From Flavobacteriales bacterium (lineage in GTDB: Bacteria > Bacteroidota > Bacteroidia > CAIKAF01): DNA of 64,000 bases. The stretch lies in contig JAKRSD010000020.1 in assembly GCA_022402535.1 (NCBI GenBank), positions 154,907-218,906 on the forward strand, written 5' to 3'. This document shows positions 1-28,636 of this stretch, piece by piece (positions within the stretch are counted from its first letter, which is position 1; each line of letters opens with the position of its first letter). A program made the position numbers and the translations under genes. The notes beneath the pieces were generated by a model. The model saw nothing but the letters and a program-made list of their open reading frames with translations, was not told the DNA's origin and searched no databases.

Positions 1-395
1 TCCGGGTCAGCGTAGCTAATCCATATCCTGCTTGCTTGAGCTTTTTTAAAAACACTAAAGGCTCCTTGCGCAGCAAGGTAGGCTTTGGTTGGGTCTTAAT
101 CCCCCATTCCGGGTCAGCGTAGCTAATCCATATCCTGCTTGCTTGAGCTTTTTTAAAAACACAAAAGACACCTTGCGCAGCAAGGGGCTTTTGATGGGTC
201 TTAATCCCACCTTCCGGATCAGCGTAGCTAATCCACATCCTGCTCGCTTGAGCTTTTTTAAAAACACAAAAGACACCTTGCGCAGCAAGAGGCTTTTGTT
301 GGGTCTTAATCCCACCTTCCGGATCAGCGTAGCTAATCCATACCCTGCTTGCTTACGCTTATTTAAAAACACTAAAGAGACCTTGCGCAGCAAGG
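1..395. repeat. Tandem repeat, four copies of 105-107 bp
   Basis: Four near-identical direct copies begin at positions 1, 108, 213 and 318, each opening with TCCGG(G/A)TCAGCGTAGCTAATCC. The last copy diverges after about 395. Each copy holds a perfect 6-bp inverted repeat (CCTTGC-GCA-GCAAGG). The later copies are 105 bp, a multiple of three, so both strands stay open and a 35-residue repeated peptide could be read on either one. I see no start context, signal peptide or known domain, so I treat the open frames as a by-product of the repeat. The array may extend left of the window. Known class: intergenic tandem repeat; function not known. Confidence 0.9.
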
Positions 396-537
396 GAAGC
401 ATTGTAAGACCTCCCGATTGTAGCAAGTTCATCAAAACTGGGCACAGATTAATTTACGCTTTGTTACCTGAGTTACATAAAGCTATTCGGAATACCCCTA
501 CCTTCGAATCATAATTACTACTTAATATCTTTCCTTT
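396..537. other. Intergenic spacer before the DUF2892-like gene
   Basis: Short AT-rich spacer. At 526-533 there is TATCTTTC, one base away from the Bacteroidota -7 element TANNTTTG and only 4 bases before the ATG at 538, so it may be the promoter of the next gene. Nothing else is recognised. Confidence 0.4.
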
Positions 538-18633: not shown

Positions 18634-18936
18634 ATGGCATTATATACGTTCAAAACTTCCGTGGGCAGATTCAGAATCATCAGTATTGCCGAAGGAATTT
18701 CCTATCTTCTTTTATTAGGCATTGCCATGCCCCTTAAATATATGGCCGATATACCCGAAGCCGTTCAGTTTACAGGATGGGCACACGGTGTTCTTTTTGT
18801 TTTATATATGATTTCGGGTTTAGACGTTTGGGTGGACAGAAAGTGGAAGTTTTCAAAAGTGGTGTTGGCGGTTCTGGCATCCCTATTTCCTTTCGGACCC
18901 TTTATTTTTGACAAAAAAATGCTGGAAAAAGAGTAA
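18634..18936 (+). CDS. DUF3817 family membrane protein
   Basis: 100 residues with three hydrophobic segments. Motifs FRIISIAEGISYLLLLGIAMPLKY and WAHGVLFVLYM followed by SLFPFGPFIFDKKML are those of the DUF3817 family of small integral membrane proteins, whose function is unknown. The last codons lie inside a 25-nt sequence repeated exactly at 23186-23210. The following 389 bp contain no gene. Confidence 0.85.
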   Translation: MALYTFKTSVGRFRIISIAEGISYLLLLGIAMPLKYMADIPEAVQFTGWAHGVLFVLYMISGLDVWVDRKWKFSKVVLAVLASLFPFGPFIFDKKMLEKE

Positions 18937-18937
18937 A
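18913..18937. repeat. 25-bp direct repeat, copy 1 (flanks the adhesin block)
   Basis: Seven As, then TGCTGGAAAAAGAGTAAA; identical to 23186-23210. This copy is the last codons and stop of the DUF3817 gene. A small hairpin (AAACTCT-CA-AGAGTTT, 18935-18950) overlaps its right end. Confidence 0.9.
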
Positions 18938-19325
18938 CTCTCAAGAGTTTCATTTCATTCATCGTATCCCTCAAATATTTGATGGAGCGTTTCTTTACTT
19001 AATATCGCCTTTTTCGCATCATCTTACTAAACAACAAAAGTTACTTTAGTTTAAATTCTATTGACGTATTTATGCGTATTCTGTTTTAAATCTTGCTATA
19101 CTTAGTATTGATAGTTTAGTTTATAAATATTTTATAGTTGAATATAGTTTACGTCTAAACTTCTCTTATTTTATCTATATTAACCTGTTATTTAACACTC
19201 TAAAACAACATAAGTTTAATTCCTGATATAAATCATACTGTGAGTTGACTACTATCATCTTTATTATAGTATACGTTTTTGAATATTTGTTCTGATAAAT
19301 ATTTCATTAACTAAAAACAAATCAC
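18938..19325. other. AT-rich intergenic region upstream of the surface adhesin
   Basis: About 390 bp without a credible gene, visibly richer in A and T than the surroundings. No exact TANNTTTG was found close to the ATG at 19326; TGAATATTTG near 19280 is the closest. The composition and the flanking direct repeat suggest it arrived with the adhesin gene. Confidence 0.6.
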
Positions 19326-22300
19326 ATGAGAAAAATTACGCTTCTTGCGATGGTCTTTCTGACAAGTGTTTTCGGAGCGTTTGCTCAAGGAGGAAACAGC
19401 GTGTCGTGTACAGACCTGAATGGCTACCCCCAGTCGAAAAATGTCGGCGCAACGGGAGCTTACACACTTACTTTTGGGCAGCTTGAAAATGCCGCTCAAA
19501 CTTATCACTATTCCGGACCGGGTAACATTACCAGTGTTCGGATTTTTGGTTCATCACCCAACGTATTAGGGGTCCCCATGAGAGCCCGTGTATACACGGT
19601 TGATGCCAACGGTCGTCCGGTATCGGTTTTGGCTTCACAAAACTTTACGTGGACCATTACCAATAACGTTTTGGGATACCATGACGTTTTCTTCGGTGGT
19701 GGAGGTGTTCCGCTGTCTTCCAATTTTGCGGTATCTGCTGAAATTATCGGCGGATTTCCTGCAGTTACCCAATTTGCTGTTGGATACAACGGGGATGGAG
19801 ATGGTAACGGGGAGGATTTAGCTTCATTGGGCGGTAGCACAACCGGATTTGTTTGGCAAAGTGCAAATAGCAGTTTTGGTCGTGATGGTGACTTCTATAT
19901 CATCCCCCGTATGAATCATTTCATCACTTCAAACTTTACCACTACTGCACAATGTGTGAACGTGGGAGAGTCTGTTGCCTTTACGAACCAATCTTTTGTT
20001 ACACAAAGCGGAATGTTTAACACCATAAACCTTCCTAATTATTCTGGTAGCCAAGCTATTTACAACTGGAACTTTGGAGACGCTACGACTTCAACTCAGG
20101 CGAATCCTACGAAAACGTACACAGCTGCCGGTGTTTATACCGTGTCACTTACCGTAAAAATTGACGGATGGAATAATGATTGTTCCGCAACCTTCACCCG
20201 CCAAATTTCGGTTGGCTTAAATGCAGGTTCTACCTCAATCAGCAATGCCACTTGTTTTGGATCTGCCAACGGTTCATTCACAGCCACTGCAACAGGCGGT
20301 GCCGCTCCATATACTTACAGCATCAACGGAACAACATATCAGTCTTCCGCTTCATTCACGGGACTATCGGCCGGAGTGTATACATTATATGTTAAAGATA
20401 ATTTAGGTTGTGTAAAAACATCTACGGTTACCATTAACCAACCATCGCAAATTACTTGGACTACCACCAACTTTACAAACGCAACTTGCGGTACTAACAG
20501 CGATGGGGCTATTTTATTAGCAGCAGTAGGCGGAACAGGTTCTCTTCAATACAGCATAAACGGTACTTCTTGGCAAACCAGCGGATCATTTACAGGTCTT
20601 GCAGCCGGTTCTTACACGGTTTATGTAAAAGATGCAAACAACTGTCAGAATACAGCTACTGTAAACATCAGCAACGCAGGTGCTCCTACATTGGTTATCA
20701 ACTCTGTAACAAACGTTACTTGTAACGGTTCTTCAACCGGTTCCATCATCCTCTCTTCTTCTGGCGGTACAGGTACTCCACAATACAGTATAGATGGTAC
20801 CAACTACCAGACTTCAGGAACTTTTACCAACTTGGCTGCCGGCACTTATTCTGTTTATGTTAAAGATCAGGCAGGTTGCATCGATGTGAAATCAGTTACA
20901 ATCATACAGCCTAATCCGCTTGTATTTACCACATCAACTACTCCGGTTTCATGTTACGAAGGTTCTAACGGATCTATTACCATATCTACTGTAAGTGGCG
21001 GTACCGGTACTCCCGTGTATAGCTTAAATGGAACCAACTATCAGTCGAGCAACGTTTTTAACGGATTAGCTGCCGGTACATACACCGTGTATGTAAGAGA
21101 TGTTGCCCAGTGTATTGCTACAGCTTCGGTAACAGTAGTTGAACCTACTGCTATTACACTTACAACAGCTATTGTAAACAATACTTGTAATGGTGGAAAT
21201 AACGGTACTATCACGGTAACCGCAAATGGAGGCAACGGAGGTTATCAATATAGCCTTAACGGGGTAAACTTCCAGCCAACGCCTGTATTTTCTAATTTGT
21301 TTGCCGGTACTTATACTGTAACGGTAAAAGATGCAAAAAACTGTACCGCTACCGTTTCTGCAACCGTAACTCAGCCTTCTATAATTTCTGCTGTGATAAC
21401 CACAGGCGCTACCGCTTGTGGAAATACAAACGGTACCATCTTAGTTTCAGCTTCAGGAGGTTCAGGTTCAGGTTATCAATATAGCCTTGATGGTGTAAAC
21501 TTTACAGGCGTAGGAAGTTTTGCCGGCTTAGCCGCAGGCACTTATCCTGTAGTGGTTAAAGACGGAGCTGGTTGTATCCGCACATTCAGTGCTACCATTG
21601 TTAACACTACTGGTCCTTCTATCAACAGCGTAAGCTCAACCAACATTACCTGCAACGGAGGAGATGATGGTTCAATCACTGTTACTTCTGTTTCAGGAGG
21701 TACCGGAACATTAACATATAGCATTAATGGATCTCCATTCCAAACGTCTACTGTATTCACAGGTTTAACTGCGGGTTCTTATGTGGTGGTTGTTAAAGAT
21801 GCTTTAGGATGTACGGGTAGCTACTCTACCATTACACTTACTCAGCCATCTCAAATTGCCGTAAGTACACAGGTTACAAACGTGAACTGCTTTGGATCTT
21901 CTACCGGTTCTGTGTTAATCACAGCAGGCGGTGGTTCAGGATTCCTTTCATACAGCATTGATGGTTTTAACTTCCAATCAAGTTCATTGTTTACAGGACT
22001 GCCTGCCGGCGAATATGCAGCCTTTGTGAAAGATCAGGGCAACTGTTTGTCATTTGCTACTTTCACTATCTCTCAACCTTCTGCAATCACCATAAGCAAT
22101 AAAGGTATCCTTAATGTATCTTGTAATGGAGGAAATGATGGGTCAATGTTAATTACTGCTAGCGGTGGCACAGGCGCTCTTCAATACTCCATTGATGGCG
22201 TAAACTTCTCATCAAACAACAGCTTTACAGGATTAACTGCCGGTTCTTACATTGTATATGTAAAAGATGCGAATGGTTGTGTTATCATGTCGCTAGCTCA

Positions 22301-23030
22301 AATTACCCAACCTGCTCCTATGGTAGCCAGTGCTAATGTATACAACGTTAGCTGTGCCGGTGGAAATAATGGCGTTATCGATTTCGTTGTATTCGGCGGT
22401 GTAGCCCCTTACACTTTCCAGTGGTCTAACGGAAACAACACAGAAGACATCTTCAACCTGACGCCAGGTCAATATAACATTGATGTAACTGACGCCAATG
22501 GATGTACAATCTCTGCAGGTTACACAATTTCTCAACCAAACAACCCTATCGTGGTTAACGGAACGGTGAACAACGCCACAGGACTTAACGCAAGTAATGG
22601 TGGTATCGATATCACGGTATCAGGCGGTACCCTTCCTTATTCTTTCGAATGGTCTAACGGTGCCGTTACTGAAGATTTAACAGGTGTTCCTCCTGGAGCA
22701 TATCTGGTAACTATTACAGATTACAACGGTTGTGAAGTATCTGCTTTCTATAATGTAGGCGTAAGCGTAGGAATCGATGATGTAGAAGCTTCTGAAATTG
22801 AAGTGAATGCTTATCCGGTTCCTGCAGATTATTTAATCACATTTGATGCTGCAGATTTTGATATCAATCGTATTGACTTGTTAAATATGTACGGACAGGT
22901 GGTTTACTCTGTTAATCCAAACATGACCAATGTTCAGGTTGACATCAGCCACTTAGCCGCAGGTGTATATTTTGCAAAAATTACCGTAAGCGGTCAAACG
23001 ATTACGAAGAAAATTCAAGTGAATCGCTAG
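19326..23030 (+). CDS. Large SprB-repeat surface protein with T9SS type A domain
   Basis: 1234 residues. Signal peptide to about residue 21 (VFGAFAQ); an unassigned beta domain to about 210; a PKD domain (IYNWNFGDATTS, NPTKTYTAAGVYTV) to about 297; then eleven tandem repeats of about 76 residues (300-1140), most with TCNG..G at the start, YSI(D/N)G in the middle and AAG.Y.VYVKD..GC at the end. These are SprB-type repeats, found in the mobile gliding adhesin SprB. Ten repeats carry the leading Cys, probably paired with the Cys of KD..GC; the eleventh (NATGLNAS) lacks it. A type A sorting domain ends the protein. Expected on the cell surface. Binding target unknown. Confidence 0.9.
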   Translation: MRKITLLAMVFLTSVFGAFAQGGNSVSCTDLNGYPQSKNVGATGAYTLTFGQLENAAQTYHYSGPGNITSVRIFGSSPNVLGVPMRARVYTVDANGRPVSVLASQNFTWTITNNVLGYHDVFFGGGGVPLSSNFAVSAEIIGGFPAVTQFAVGYNGDGDGNGEDLASLGGSTTGFVWQSANSSFGRDGDFYIIPRMNHFITSNFTTTAQCVNVGESVAFTNQSFVTQSGMFNTINLPNYSGSQAIYNWNFGDATTSTQANPTKTYTAAGVYTVSLTVKIDGWNNDCSATFTRQISVGLNAGSTSISNATCFGSANGSFTATATGGAAPYTYSINGTTYQSSASFTGLSAGVYTLYVKDNLGCVKTSTVTINQPSQITWTTTNFTNATCGTNSDGAILLAAVGGTGSLQYSINGTSWQTSGSFTGLAAGSYTVYVKDANNCQNTATVNISNAGAPTLVINSVTNVTCNGSSTGSIILSSSGGTGTPQYSIDGTNYQTSGTFTNLAAGTYSVYVKDQAGCIDVKSVTIIQPNPLVFTTSTTPVSCYEGSNGSITISTVSGGTGTPVYSLNGTNYQSSNVFNGLAAGTYTVYVRDVAQCIATASVTVVEPTAITLTTAIVNNTCNGGNNGTITVTANGGNGGYQYSLNGVNFQPTPVFSNLFAGTYTVTVKDAKNCTATVSATVTQPSIISAVITTGATACGNTNGTILVSASGGSGSGYQYSLDGVNFTGVGSFAGLAAGTYPVVVKDGAGCIRTFSATIVNTTGPSINSVSSTNITCNGGDDGSITVTSVSGGTGTLTYSINGSPFQTSTVFTGLTAGSYVVVVKDALGCTGSYSTITLTQPSQIAVSTQVTNVNCFGSSTGSVLITAGGGSGFLSYSIDGFNFQSSSLFTGLPAGEYAAFVKDQGNCLSFATFTISQPSAITISNKGILNVSCNGGNDGSMLITASGGTGALQYSIDGVNFSSNNSFTGLTAGSYIVYVKDANGCVIMSLAQITQPAPMVASANVYNVSCAGGNNGVIDFVVFGGVAPYTFQWSNGNNTEDIFNLTPGQYNIDVTDANGCTISAGYTISQPNNPIVVNGTVNNATGLNASNGGIDITVSGGTLPYSFEWSNGAVTEDLTGVPPGAYLVTITDYNGCEVSAFYNVGVSVGIDDVEASEIEVNAYPVPADYLITFDAADFDINRIDLLNMYGQVVYSVNPNMTNVQVDISHLAAGVYFAKITVSGQTITKKIQVNR

Positions 23031-23048
23031 TCGATAGTTTGATTTCTT

Positions 23049-23087
23049 AAAAAGAAGCGCAGTCTTTTGACTGCGCTTCTTTTTTTT
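23049..23087 (+). terminator. Rho-independent terminator of the adhesin gene
   Basis: A perfect 16-bp stem (23049-23064 with 23069-23084; core GAAGCGCAGTC/GACTGCGCTTC), TTTT loop, then more Ts. Very strong. Confidence 0.95.
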
Positions 23088-23185
23088 GCCCTTTTAATAT
23101 TGGTTGAGAAATCTAAAATCTTTAGGGGAATAATTTCAAAAGAGGATTATAAATATCTGAATTTCGTTTGAAGGAAACGAATCAG

Positions 23186-23210
23186 AAAAAAATGCTGGAA
23201 AAAGAGTAAA
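23186..23210. repeat. 25-bp direct repeat, copy 2 (flanks the adhesin block)
   Basis: Exact copy of 18913-18937, but not in a coding context. It forms one arm and the U tract of the minus-strand terminator at 23186-23239. A 7-bp hairpin (TTCGTTT/AAACGAA, 23163-23181) lies 4 nt to its left. Confidence 0.9.
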
Positions 23211-23239
23211 GCAAACCCATCAAAACCCCTTTTCCAGCA
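23186..23239 (-). terminator. Rho-independent terminator of the GH92 operon
   Basis: A 10-bp perfect stem (23193-23202 TGCTGGAAAA with 23230-23239 TTTTCCAGCA) with a 27-nt loop. On the minus strand it is followed by seven Ts. It lies 21 nt after the stop of the last operon gene. Confidence 0.75.
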
Positions 23240-23259
23240 CACTGTCCGCAGACAGATTT

Positions 23260-24105
23260 TTAAAAGCTCATTTCCTGTTCCATCATAATGCGGTTATCTA
23301 CCAAAAACCGGATGTAATAAGGCCCTTGGTTATAAACTGAAGCATCAAATACAAATTCAACTTTACGACTTCCTGCCGGTTCCGTAGGATTGTTGTATAA
23401 TTCTCTTACCGCAATATTCTGGGTGTCAAACATGGCTACCTGAATCGCTTTGGGTGATGAAAAGCGAAACTCAAACTCCCCTCCAACAGAAATTTTTGGA
23501 CGGGCTCTCGGATTTCTCAAATAGTCATCCGCTGCGGGAGGCGCAGGCACCGGTTTTCCTGTTAATGTGGACAAAAACTGAAGCGTTTCGGTAACTTTGG
23601 CCTCGTTGTAGCTGAACACATTTTCCAACGGTTCTTTATCGCTGATGCACCACATGGCCGTTTGTCCCAGATAGGTTCCCGAAAGACCATTCTTATGAAT
23701 AAATTCGGCGGTTTTTACTAATTGGGGATTCGCCTGTTTTTTAATCTTAAAATCCATGCCGCTTTGGGGTGCGCCTTTACTGTGATTTACACACATTGCC
23801 GATACCGGAATTTTTTTGACTTCGCCCGGACTTAACGTAACAAATAGGGGTTCCGTAGAAACAAAATTTTGTTTTGTGGTATCATTACTGGCAAAATAAC
23901 GGCCTACAGGCAACTCTATGTTCATGGGAGCCGATGTTATATTTTTTAATTCCAACAAAACCGGCTGTTGGAAATGAGCCGATTTTTCATTGACCACAGC
24001 CTGTGCGGTTATTTTTCTTTGATTCACGGCATCATCAAAAGGAATGGTTGAGTTTGGCTGATTCCAAATACCCAAAACGGCAAGAATACTCAAAATGGTT
24101 ATCAT
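23260..24105 (-). CDS. Unknown exported protein, last gene of the GH92 operon
   Basis: 281 residues, not recognised. A short hydrophobic N-terminus (ITILSILAVLGIW) suggests export. Beta-rich N-terminal half (VNEKSAHFQQPVLLELKN, FVTLSPGEVKKIPVSAMC) looks like an Ig-type fold. The C-terminus (FRFSSPKAIQVAMFDTQN, YNQGPYYIRFLVDNRIM) resembles the FlgD-like or sorting-domain Ig fold but lacks a clear T9SS signature. A middle helical segment contains SYNEAKVTETLQFLSTLTG. It lies 71 nt downstream of the DUF4230 gene and is followed by a terminator, so it likely belongs to the same transcript. Confidence 0.6.
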   Translation of the reverse strand: MITILSILAVLGIWNQPNSTIPFDDAVNQRKITAQAVVNEKSAHFQQPVLLELKNITSAPMNIELPVGRYFASNDTTKQNFVSTEPLFVTLSPGEVKKIPVSAMCVNHSKGAPQSGMDFKIKKQANPQLVKTAEFIHKNGLSGTYLGQTAMWCISDKEPLENVFSYNEAKVTETLQFLSTLTGKPVPAPPAADDYLRNPRARPKISVGGEFEFRFSSPKAIQVAMFDTQNIAVRELYNNPTEPAGSRKVEFVFDASVYNQGPYYIRFLVDNRIMMEQEMSF

Positions 24106-24176
24106 AAGCTAAGAGATTTAGCTTTAGAAACGGAACTAAAAATCAGCGAGATTCTTTATTTAGTTTTTTTAACCAA

Positions 24177-24797
24177 TTAATCCACGATGGCTTTTTTGCG
24201 GAAAGAAACGGTTACTTGTTTTCCTGCAATTTTTTCAAAAATGGGAACCAATATCTGAGAAGCATTCTTTTCAGCCTCAACAAGAGCAGGCAACTGCACA
24301 TCGGGGCGGTTTAAATATTTCTCCGCTTCTTTATACGATTTATCCAACAACTCTGCGTCATCATCCAGTAACATCCAAGATCGTTTGTGATGTATTTTAG
24401 AGTGCTCGTGATTTACTTTTGTGTAACATATTTCAGGAGAAGGGAGAAATATCTTTACACCTTTCTCATCAGACTCCACATCAGTATCTTTTAGCTTCTG
24501 TAAATCTACACAGGCTCCAATTTCACCCGATACCATCATCAGCACTTTGGAATCGGGCAAAAACATGGGGCGTTCAATTTTGTATTCGATTATATCTTTT
24601 ATCTGAAACTGGACCAGTTGCAATTTGCCCATTAGCCGAATTTTTTCGACAACAGCCTCATGGGTAATACTTTCTTTGTTTTCCGTACTCTGTATAATTC
24701 GATACACAAAAACAACAGAAAGGATAACGGCGGTAATAATACCAAGTAATTTAAAAATACTGACAAGGTCAGAAACTGATGTTGGTTTTTTATTCAT
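24177..24797 (-). CDS. DUF4230 domain membrane-anchored protein
   Basis: 206 residues from the ATG at 24797. One transmembrane helix near the start (LLGIITAVILSVVFVYRII) is followed by a soluble domain with LPDSKVLMMVSGEIGACVDL and IFLPSPEICYTKVNHEHSKI, the typical pattern of DUF4230, and a C-terminal helical stretch. Function of the family is unknown. A TTG three codons upstream is also possible. The gene is 20 nt downstream of the GH92 gene on the same strand. Confidence 0.8.
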   Translation of the reverse strand: MNKKPTSVSDLVSIFKLLGIITAVILSVVFVYRIIQSTENKESITHEAVVEKIRLMGKLQLVQFQIKDIIEYKIERPMFLPDSKVLMMVSGEIGACVDLQKLKDTDVESDEKGVKIFLPSPEICYTKVNHEHSKIHHKRSWMLLDDDAELLDKSYKEAEKYLNRPDVQLPALVEAEKNASQILVPIFEKIAGKQVTVSFRKKAIVD

Positions 24798-24817
24798 CGA
24801 GGCCAATGGAACAATAA

Positions 24818-27703
24818 CTATTCCACAATCACTTCATCTACAAATATAAAGGCTGGAGAGCCCGCACCGGGATGTCCCATTGGCAGATTCCCGTAATTTT
24901 CAGCAATTATGCGAATGTATTTAACCCCGTTGAAATTCACTTTTTGTGAAATTTCCTCCTTAAAGACCTTTTCCGTTTTATCGTCAACCTTAAATTTTTG
25001 GGCTTGTGAATACAATACCTTTTTGTTTGCGTCGTACAATTCAAACAAAACAGATTTGGGCATAACAATCCACGAACGCAAGTCTTGTAAAAAACCCACT
25101 GAAATTTTATTTACCGTTTTAGGATTTCCCAATTCAATCATCACGTCAAAGTCGGTATTCTGATATCCCTGCCATCCACCTTTTCGCCAGTTTTCATCGC
25201 CCCGCAATCCATCAATCAACCCTTCGGGCCCTCCTGCAGAATATTGCGTATTGTAAACGGAAGCCAGGTTTACCTTCCAATCTGGATTGGGAAACGGCCA
25301 AAACTGAGCCATAGATTGAGCGCCAACATATCCTTGGGTATTTTTAGAAACAGCCCTAACTATGCTTTTTTCATAAATTTCAATGGGATTAGTATATTTT
25401 CTTCCTTTTGTTTCGGGGTCGGTACCATCCAAAGTATAATATACTGTATGTGAAGAATCAAAAGCGATCAATTCGATACGCTGTTTGTTTTTAAATACTT
25501 TCTGCACCGCTTTAATTTCGGGAGCAGGAATCTTATTTACGTTTTCATTAGTATAAAAGTCATCTGGAAGCTTGAAATTGCTAAAAGATAAAGAAGGTGT
25601 ATCAGCAAATTTTAAATATAATGTGCCGCCCTCCATCAACTCCTCATGTTTTATCCAAAGTCGATTTAATGGTTTGCCATTAAGAAAAAGCTCTTTCAGA
25701 TACCAATTTCCTTTTATATTACCCTCAGCTTTTACGGTAAACTGTTTCCCATTTTCAAACTTCCATGTTATTTCTTTGAATAATGGAAATCCTATGTGAT
25801 ATATATCTGAGCCCGGTGTTACGGGATAAAATCCGGCCGCACTGAATATGTACCAGGCACTCATTTGTCCGCAATCTTCATTGCCTGGCAAGCCGTCCGG
25901 GGTGGGTTGATACAGACTATCTAAAATCTGATAAATTTTTGAAGTCGCTTTTTCGGGTTTTAATAGATAATTGTACAGATAAGCCATGTGATGACTGGGT
26001 TCATTGCCATGGGCATACTGACCGATTAATCCTGTTATATCTACCTGAGTTCTGCCCGTAGTATTTTGGGGTTCCGTAAAAAGTTTGTCGAGCAAAAGTT
26101 CAAAACGGTCGTTCCCTCCTATCGCATGGATTAACCCTTTTACATCGTGTGGTACAAAAAAGGAATATTGCCATGAATTGGCTTCGGTGTAATGGTTGTT
26201 TACTTCACGCGGATCGAAAGGGTTGAGCCATCCACCGTTGACACGGGGTCTCATTAATCCGGTAGATTTATCTAATAAATGAATCCACGATATAGAGCGC
26301 TTTAAAAAACGATGATAGACTTCTTTATTTCCTGCGGCTTTAGCCAAAACGGCCACGCACCAGTCATCATAAGCATATTCCAAAGTTTTGGCCACACTTT
26401 CATGCTCATCATCCACTTCCAGATACCCTTTTTGATCATAAACCGGTACACCTCGATCTAAATACGTGGCGTTAGAAACAGCTGCCTCCAACGCGAGATT
26501 AATATCCATGGGAATACCTTTTGCATAGGCGTCTGCCAACACGGAAACTGCATGATAACCGATCATGCAATCGGTTTCGTTGCACCAAAGTTCCCACATG
26601 GGCAATCGTCCGCCCTGTTTGTACTGAGCCAAAAAAGTCGTGACGAAATCTTCGGTTCTTTTTCGGTTAATGAGAGTATGTAATGGATGCAGCGCCCTAA
26701 ATGTATCCCACAATGAAAAAACCGTATAATAATTGGATTCTGTGCGGTATATTTTACCATCGCGTCCACGGTAACGCCCATCCACATCAGAAAAGACATT
26801 GGGGTGGATACACGCATGATATAAAGAAGTGTATAGATTTATTTTTTCTTTATCAGAACCTCCCTGCACCTGAATTTTAGAAAGTTCGGCATTCCATTTT
26901 TTTCGGGCAGCCAGGCGAATTCCTTCAAAATCAAAATCGGGAATTTCATTCACCCGATTTTTTTCTGCTCCTTTTTCATCTACGGCCGATAGTGCCAATT
27001 TAAGCTGCACCATATTTTTCCCTTTCACAGGGAAAGAGAGAATGGCCATTTCAACGCCTTTTTCATCCTGAATTATGCGATTTACCACAAAAGGCAGATC
27101 CGTTTCGGCAGAAAAATAAACCATTTGATCGGTAGCCCAGGCTTTGCTTTGCCTATAACCATGAAAGCCCTTTTGCATAACGGGTGTGAATCCGGCGCTT
27201 AATCGCTCATCGCGGTGCGAAAAATCAACAACCAGATGTAAAGTGTCCAAGTTGGAAAATGAAAACTTATGGAATGCCGCACGGGCTGTCGTAGTAACTT
27301 CATACCGTACTTTTCCCCTGTTGAGTGTTACGGCATAATATCCCGGTTCTGCTTTTTCATTAAAATGAGAAAAAGACGATGCATAAAATGCACCTTTCGT
27401 ATTGTCCGGGATCTTGCCTACATAAGGCATTATCATGATATCTCCGTAGTCAGAACAACCTGTACCGCTCAAATGCGTATGGGAGAATCCATAAATTACA
27501 GAATCGGAATAATGATACCCGGAACAGCCTTCCCATGAGCCGTCAATACGAGTATCCGGACCAGCCTGTACCATGCCGAAAGGCACCGTGGCACCCGGAA
27601 AAGTATGCCCCGTTCCTCCCGTTCCGATAAAAGGATTTACCCATTCCCACTGTGCCAAAGCTGAAATAGGTATGAGTATAAATAAAAAGCTGATTTTTTT
27701 CAT
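24818..27703 (-). CDS. GH92 family alpha-mannosidase
   Basis: 961 residues from the ATG at 27703, with a signal peptide ending ISALAQ. The GH92 core runs to about residue 720: WVNPFIGTGGTGHTFPGA at the N-terminus, then SHTHLSGTGCSDYG, ELWCNETDCMIGYHA, GNEPSHHMAYLYNY and NEDCGQMSAWYIFSAAGF, which holds the conserved acidic catalytic region. The C-terminal third has a chitobiase-type domain (YYTLDGTDPET) and an F5/8-like beta-sandwich. GH92 enzymes are calcium-dependent exo-alpha-mannosidases acting on N-glycans or mannan. Its partners are a ROK kinase 12 nt upstream and a sugar transporter. No T9SS domain, so it is probably periplasmic. Confidence 0.93.
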   Translation of the reverse strand: MKKISFLFILIPISALAQWEWVNPFIGTGGTGHTFPGATVPFGMVQAGPDTRIDGSWEGCSGYHYSDSVIYGFSHTHLSGTGCSDYGDIMIMPYVGKIPDNTKGAFYASSFSHFNEKAEPGYYAVTLNRGKVRYEVTTTARAAFHKFSFSNLDTLHLVVDFSHRDERLSAGFTPVMQKGFHGYRQSKAWATDQMVYFSAETDLPFVVNRIIQDEKGVEMAILSFPVKGKNMVQLKLALSAVDEKGAEKNRVNEIPDFDFEGIRLAARKKWNAELSKIQVQGGSDKEKINLYTSLYHACIHPNVFSDVDGRYRGRDGKIYRTESNYYTVFSLWDTFRALHPLHTLINRKRTEDFVTTFLAQYKQGGRLPMWELWCNETDCMIGYHAVSVLADAYAKGIPMDINLALEAAVSNATYLDRGVPVYDQKGYLEVDDEHESVAKTLEYAYDDWCVAVLAKAAGNKEVYHRFLKRSISWIHLLDKSTGLMRPRVNGGWLNPFDPREVNNHYTEANSWQYSFFVPHDVKGLIHAIGGNDRFELLLDKLFTEPQNTTGRTQVDITGLIGQYAHGNEPSHHMAYLYNYLLKPEKATSKIYQILDSLYQPTPDGLPGNEDCGQMSAWYIFSAAGFYPVTPGSDIYHIGFPLFKEITWKFENGKQFTVKAEGNIKGNWYLKELFLNGKPLNRLWIKHEELMEGGTLYLKFADTPSLSFSNFKLPDDFYTNENVNKIPAPEIKAVQKVFKNKQRIELIAFDSSHTVYYTLDGTDPETKGRKYTNPIEIYEKSIVRAVSKNTQGYVGAQSMAQFWPFPNPDWKVNLASVYNTQYSAGGPEGLIDGLRGDENWRKGGWQGYQNTDFDVMIELGNPKTVNKISVGFLQDLRSWIVMPKSVLFELYDANKKVLYSQAQKFKVDDKTEKVFKEEISQKVNFNGVKYIRIIAENYGNLPMGHPGAGSPAFIFVDEVIVE

Positions 27704-27715
27704 CACCAAATGGAT

Positions 27716-28636
27716 TTATTCCTGCCAGATAAGCGACGCAGCCCCTAATATGGCGGCATCATCCTGCGGTAGAGCAGAGTGTATAATTTTTACTTTATTG
27801 CGATAAATGGGCAGCAACTCTTTTTCCATGTTTTCTATCACCGGTAAAAATAGCCTATCCCCCGCATGGGCCAATCCGCCAAAAAGAAAGATGGCTTCCG
27901 GTGATGTAAAATGTACTGCCATAGCCAAAGCCTTGCCTAAAATTTCACCGGTAAACGTGATTGCTTCATTCGCCTCTTTATCACCGGAAACCGCTTTATC
28001 AAACACTTCTTTAGCTGTGATATTTTGTTGTAATTCTGACGAAGAAAGTAATTCGAGGTACGTTTTCACAAGACCCGGAGCTGAACAATACGTTTCCAGA
28101 CACCCTTTTCTGCCGCACCCGCAAACTCTTCCTTCAGGCTTTACAATAATGTGTCCCATTTCTCCTGCAAAACCATCGTGGCCGTATACTAATTTTCCGT
28201 TTGCTATAATTCCACTGCCCAATCCTGTTCCTAAGGTGATAAAAATAAAATCCTTCATTCCCTTGGCTCCCCCAAAAAGCATTTCGCCCAAAGCAGCCGC
28301 ATTGGCATCATTGGTAAGTAAACAGGGCACTTTAAAGACGGATTGGAAAATTTCTGTCAGATAAATGACGCCCTCCCAAAGTAAATTGGGTGCAAATTCA
28401 ATAGTACCTTTATAAAAATTACCGTTGGGGGCTCCGATTCCGATTCCTTTAAGGGTATAATTATGAGAATTCAAAACGGGTAAAAGAAGTTGATGTAACT
28501 CTTCTGCCAATATTTGAGGGGTTGGATACTGATTTGTGCTTACTGTGCTGCGCCAAAGTACTTCACCTTCAGCGTTCACCAAACCTATTTTAATGTTGGT
28601 TCCCCCGATATCGATTCCGGCTACCACTTCACGCAT
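27716..28636 (-). CDS. ROK family sugar kinase
   Basis: 306 residues. ATP-binding motif GIDIGGTNIKIGLVN at the start, TNDANAAALGE with the catalytic Asp region, LGTGLGSGII, and the ROK zinc motif CGCGRKGCLE preceded by DGFAGEMGHI (zinc His). ROK kinases phosphorylate hexoses such as glucose, mannose or N-acetyl sugars in the cytoplasm. Position between a sugar MFS transporter (2 nt gap) and a GH92 mannosidase (12 nt gap) favours mannose, but glucose cannot be excluded. Confidence 0.9.
   Translation of the reverse strand: MREVVAGIDIGGTNIKIGLVNAEGEVLWRSTVSTNQYPTPQILAEELHQLLLPVLNSHNYTLKGIGIGAPNGNFYKGTIEFAPNLLWEGVIYLTEIFQSVFKVPCLLTNDANAAALGEMLFGGAKGMKDFIFITLGTGLGSGIIANGKLVYGHDGFAGEMGHIIVKPEGRVCGCGRKGCLETYCSAPGLVKTYLELLSSSELQQNITAKEVFDKAVSGDKEANEAITFTGEILGKALAMAVHFTSPEAIFLFGGLAHAGDRLFLPVIENMEKELLPIYRNKVKIIHSALPQDDAAILGAASLIWQE

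Follow-up and report, generated by a model that had tools for sequence, protein, structure and literature searches.

The 4.25-kb block at positions 18938-23185 of the window (the whole 64-kb stretch of DNA that was analysed) is bounded by a perfect 25-bp direct repeat and most likely represents a one-off capture rather than a new element. According to the reading that we favour, with a probability of about 0.68, a laterally acquired adhesin transcription unit was inserted there once, by capture at a staggered break, which duplicated 25 bp used by both neighbours. Features of the locus are collected in Table 1; all terminators listed there and discussed below are predictions from sequence and folding.

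Table 1. Features of the adhesin locus in window coordinates
Feature	Position	Strand	Evidence or remark
DUF3817 gene, 100 aa, native left neighbour	18634..18936	+	PF12823, E=8.5e-30; last codons and stop inside copy 1
Repeat copy 1, DUF3817 last codons (KKMLEKE) and stop	18913..18937	+	Exact match to copy 2; two copies genome-wide
Small hairpin at inner edge of copy 1	18935-18950		-3.5 kcal/mol
Adhesin leader, AT-rich, 388 bp	18938..19325	+	~32% GC; no copy elsewhere in genome
Crp/Fnr-like palindrome CCTGATATAAATCATA, core TGAT-ATAA-ATCA, 104 bp before start codon	19222..19237	+	Weak, 3 mismatches (level of 16/198 control ORFs)
Putative adhesin of 1234 aa, carrying ten SprB repeats, a PKD domain and a T9SS type A sorting tail besides a novel N-terminal domain	19326..23030	+	Profile matches; homologues
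Adhesin intrinsic terminator (predicted), 16-bp stem	23049..23084	+	-25.6 kcal/mol, z -6.3
Small hairpin adjoining copy 2	23157..23185	.	-8.3 kcal/mol; one match genome-wide
Repeat copy 2; contributes the U-tract, the 3' arm and three loop bases to the minus-strand GH92-operon terminator	23186..23210	.	Exact match to copy 1; folding
Opposing-operon terminator (predicted): hairpin 23192-23240 (16 bp, 17-nt loop), U-tract 23186-23192	23186..23240	-	-21.8 kcal/mol, z -4.3
Weak terminator-like hairpin and ATTTTT, 5-bp stem	23242..23261	+	Just past rejoined junction
Opposing operon: 281-aa protein, DUF4230, GH92, ROK kinase	23260..28636	-	ORFs and domain matches

The 25-mer AAAAAAATGCTGGAAAAAGAGTAAA is A-rich and opens with seven A's. 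Its perfect identity at the two sites, claimed in an earlier note on this DNA, was reproduced by exact comparison and exceeds the background. A search for additional copies, which the same note had proposed, returned only these two matches in the genome (3.41 Mb) at 0 mismatches and no further ones at up to 3 mismatches, so that dispersed copies are absent. Even the 18-base core left after removal of poly-A was found twice in the window against 0.14 expected from shuffles of the window. Exact direct repeats spaced by 1-6 kb were counted in ~397 kb of the same genome, giving 150 pairs of 12 nt, 54 of 13, 22 of 14 and 6 of 15. The counts thus drop approximately 2.7-fold with each added base, and extrapolation of this fall predicts less than 0.001 pairs of 25 nt. 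All noncoding repeats longer than this background in the ~397 kb scanned came from one duplication on another contig, which has 3.4-kb spacing and exact stretches of up to 62 nt (L183, 127-3750; G000 C19, ~89.1-92.7 kb). Outside the 25 bp identity falls to the level of chance (4/30 in the left flanks and 7/30 in the right ones), and the flanks checked at other SprB genes of the genome contained no repeat comparable to this pair. Identical direct repeats beyond chance are therefore present at both edges of the block. Separately, the left edge of the window (1-430) is occupied by a tandem repeat with a unit of ~105 bp.

The two copies do different jobs, since one is a coding end, while the other is a predicted terminator arm whose 5' partner exists there alone. 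Copy 1 had been described as the last codons and stop of the DUF3817 gene, and the PF12823 match together with the alignment of homologues bears this out. In alignments, DUF3817 homologues of many Bacteroidota share the DKK(L/M)L segment and vary in the residues behind it, which identifies copy 1 as the native end of this gene. Copy 2 had been assigned to an arm and the U-tract of the terminator that closes the opposing GH92 operon. The predicted hairpin, located just beyond the operon and followed by a U-tract of seven, agrees with this assignment in its folding energy. The related claim that the matching terminator arm occurs at copy 2 only and the coding context at copy 1 only holds as well: the 5' arm (23225-23240) is found nowhere but at copy 2, and the DUF3817 end at copy 1. 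As to the DUF3817 protein itself, its identity to Pontibacter sequences reaches 67% against a best value of 62% within its own family, and because of this closer relationship the DUF3817 gene may also be a lateral acquisition.

When the flanks were joined in silico at the repeat, an apparently normal junction was obtained, with the DUF3817 gene intact and convergent with the gene for the 281-aa protein, their stops being 50 bp apart. The operon terminator then overlaps the last DUF3817 codons. The stretch in dual use, which starts with the U-tract and closes with the stop codon, comprises 24 nt versus 25 nt of the repeat, the right edge of which lies in the hairpin loop. Such an arrangement is not exotic in this genome, as in two others among 51 close convergent ORF pairs (L182, 10962-11020, and L187, 5726-5772) a terminator extends over 25 nt of the ORF opposite. 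At present the DUF3817 gene has no convincing terminator of its own; the weak hairpin at 23242-23261 suggestively lies just past the rejoined junction and is possibly its earlier terminator. In the family genomes examined, none of them of the same genus, the DUF3817, 281-aa and GH92 genes are nowhere adjacent and no empty site was seen. A scan of a collection of genome contigs for DUF3817 gave distant homologues only.

The block itself consists of a leader, one gene and its own strong terminator, and adhesin homologues carry a terminator at the equivalent place. The earlier note spoke of an AT-rich SprB-repeat gene, which proved incorrect: at 43% GC the gene resembles its neighbours, and the deviation is confined to the 388-bp leader. 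Base composition was accordingly rejected as a sign of foreign origin, and since the GC content of the gene is that of the host, its foreignness is not obvious from this property. Comparison of the leader with the rest of the genome gave a single chance match of 22 bp, and a search of Rfam gave no match near gathering scores. Small hairpins reported beside each copy are indeed present at both inner edges; that beside copy 2 matches the genome only once and was discarded as a candidate for a repeated element end.

The encoded protein is a putative SprB-repeat surface adhesin exported by T9SS, as judged from ten stretches of SprB repeats (PF13573, E=3.7e-81) and a C-terminal sorting domain recognised by PF18962 and, above cut-off, by TIGR04183. 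Searching 395 genomes of the class with its N-terminal domain revealed clear homologues in ten distant genomes. Nine of them are full length (1226-1238 aa) and 43-52% identical from end to end; the tenth is cut by the end of its contig. Their alignment is almost gap-free over 1254 columns and covers several families (window 19326-23030; L241, L242, L244-L250, L258, L260). The number of repeats in repeat proteins is usually variable. Like SprB of Flavobacterium johnsoniae, this large putative surface protein combines SprB repeats with a T9SS sorting tail, but it is much smaller, varies hardly at all in length and number of repeats between distant families and possesses a distinctive conserved N-terminal domain. 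For this domain a profile search found no solved relative, and a single-sequence structure model (pLDDT 48) was too poor for use.

Distribution of the adhesin among distant Bacteroidota families is patchy. The remaining 15 genomes of the window's family contain no homologue (a weak partial match in G004 belongs to a different protein), and within two genera it occurs in 2/7 and ~6/36 genomes. The gene tree is at odds with family labels: the window copy groups with f16 genomes and one f37 genome (100/100), and both f37 and f21 are split. Taken together, patchy presence and this splitting fit a history of lateral movement plus loss, and the gene in the window was probably acquired laterally. Genes beside the adhesin differ from carrier to carrier, and no plasmid carriage was found. 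None of the ten other carrier loci has flanking repeats like the 25-mer pair; a 31-bp repeat at -301/+1120 in L244 resembles a dispersed palindromic repeat.

Most homologues have a TGTGATNNNNATCACA-like palindrome approximately 100-165 bp upstream of the start codon. With no more than 3 mismatches it was registered in 13/15 adhesin loci versus 16/198 other ORFs of the same loci, a contrast somewhat inflated by the choice of the motif after these sequences had been viewed. The palindromes of homologues occupy similar positions and are stronger than that of the window. Genes for REC-cNMP-HTH_Crp regulators are located nearby in L242, L245, L246, L249, L258 and L260, while genes for BON-domain (OsmY-like) proteins are found nearby in L247, L248 and L250. 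The palindrome and such neighbours suggest that the adhesin is under stress or oxygen regulation. In the window the adhesin stands alone with a weak palindrome, and its genome has no close full-length REC-Crp homologue, the best match being a Crp-type protein with 28% identity.

Based on this data one can assume the following course of events, in which we infer the insertion, its direction and the kind of break. In the ancestor the GH92 operon would have converged on the DUF3817 gene, with stops 50 bp apart, and the complement of the last DUF3817 codons would also have supplied the U-tract and 3' arm for the operon terminator. A complete laterally acquired adhesin unit of 4.25 kb, with leader, gene and its own terminator, would then have inserted once between them. 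The dual-use stretch of 25 bp would have been duplicated in the process, copy 1 going to DUF3817 and copy 2 to the operon, so that the former retained its coding end and the latter its terminator. The likeliest physical route would be capture at a staggered break with subsequent fill-in, one edge of the break lying in the terminator loop. Insertion without duplication of the ~24-nt overlap would damage either DUF3817 or the terminator, and selection may therefore explain the extent of the repeat.

In favour of this insertion are the exact and unique repeat, the identification of copy 1 as native, the strong predicted terminator, the normal rejoined junction, the patchy and discordant distribution of the adhesin and the presence of a terminator in the unit itself. 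Opposed to it are the failure to see an empty site in the family genomes examined, the lack of a comparable repeat in other carriers and the length of the repeat, 25 bp being long for a target duplication. The host-like GC content of the adhesin gene counts against it too. The insertion with a 25-bp duplication put forward in the earlier note thus stands, short of proof, as the best reading, by virtue of patchiness, tree discordance, native copy 1 and normal junction, and loses its argument from AT-richness. Recombination or an unknown element had also been considered necessary; since ten other carriers are free of comparable repeats, there is no sign of such a dedicated element. Identical direct repeats immediately flanking the block resemble the target-site duplication of transposons and IS elements. 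The block differs from such insertions in having no terminal inverted repeats (9/40 identical in an ungapped comparison of its ends) and no transposase, as well as in the unusual length of the duplication.

Among the alternatives, an integrative element devoid of its integrase, either mobilised in trans or decayed, survives best, even so as an unlikely one. It would use the 3' end of DUF3817 as att site, with the 25-bp copies as attL and attR. The direct repeat does include this 3' end and leaves the gene intact, the adhesin family is patchy, and the anatomy is that of genomic islands sitting at the 3' ends of protein genes, such as SGI1 (trmE; PMC8409611) and PAISt (bacA; PMC4057263). Such islands likewise leave the gene intact on one side and an identical direct repeat with the displaced gene end on the far side; the adhesin block differs from them in carrying no integrase or mobility genes and one cargo gene only, and in lacking both a second site and a repeat around the cargo in its other carriers. 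Those ORFs of the window that were scanned included neither an integrase nor a transposase gene, in line with the absence of transposase stated previously. The genome offers no third copy of the site, and the repeat-free loci of the ten other carriers speak against this explanation as well.

A longer duplication of the junction or of the DUF3817 gene, which decayed everywhere except for the 25 bp needed by both copies, would account for the almost exact coverage of the 24-nt dual-use stretch by the repeat. We consider it improbable: flanks at the level of chance imply long decay, yet identity has persisted even at the synonymous positions in copy 1 and the loop bases in copy 2, and no remains of DUF3817 were seen upstream of the second copy. 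The adhesin might also have been in place already, with copy 2 made later by short gene conversion or template switch, copying the DUF3817 end into the terminator. The copy forms a predicted terminator arm, and the order of events is not fixed without an empty site; this scenario, however, is less probable still. It requires two events instead of the single one of the insertion, as well as a 5' arm (23225-23240) matching the copied end by luck. Chance identity or an assembly artefact, to which an A-rich repeat beginning with seven A's might be prone, is barely credible given the expected background, the excess of the 18-base core over shuffles and the position of the locus inside a 587-kb contig.

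The favoured insertion provides an example of a solitary surface-protein gene entering between convergent units, neither of which would have been harmed because their common stretch was duplicated. A broader idea, that the ~1230-aa adhesin with a regulated promoter and a terminator is a recurrent single-gene cassette moving alone among Bacteroidota, with a dedicated in-trans route of integration at gene ends or terminators and precise exit via 25-bp repeats restoring both neighbours, seems to us a long shot. Literature searches returned no paper on the adhesin family or a matching element. In the literature searched, therefore, no description was found of what emerges here: an SprB-repeat adhesin family of fixed length, patchy and discordant with taxonomy, with recurrent regulator neighbours of stress type.
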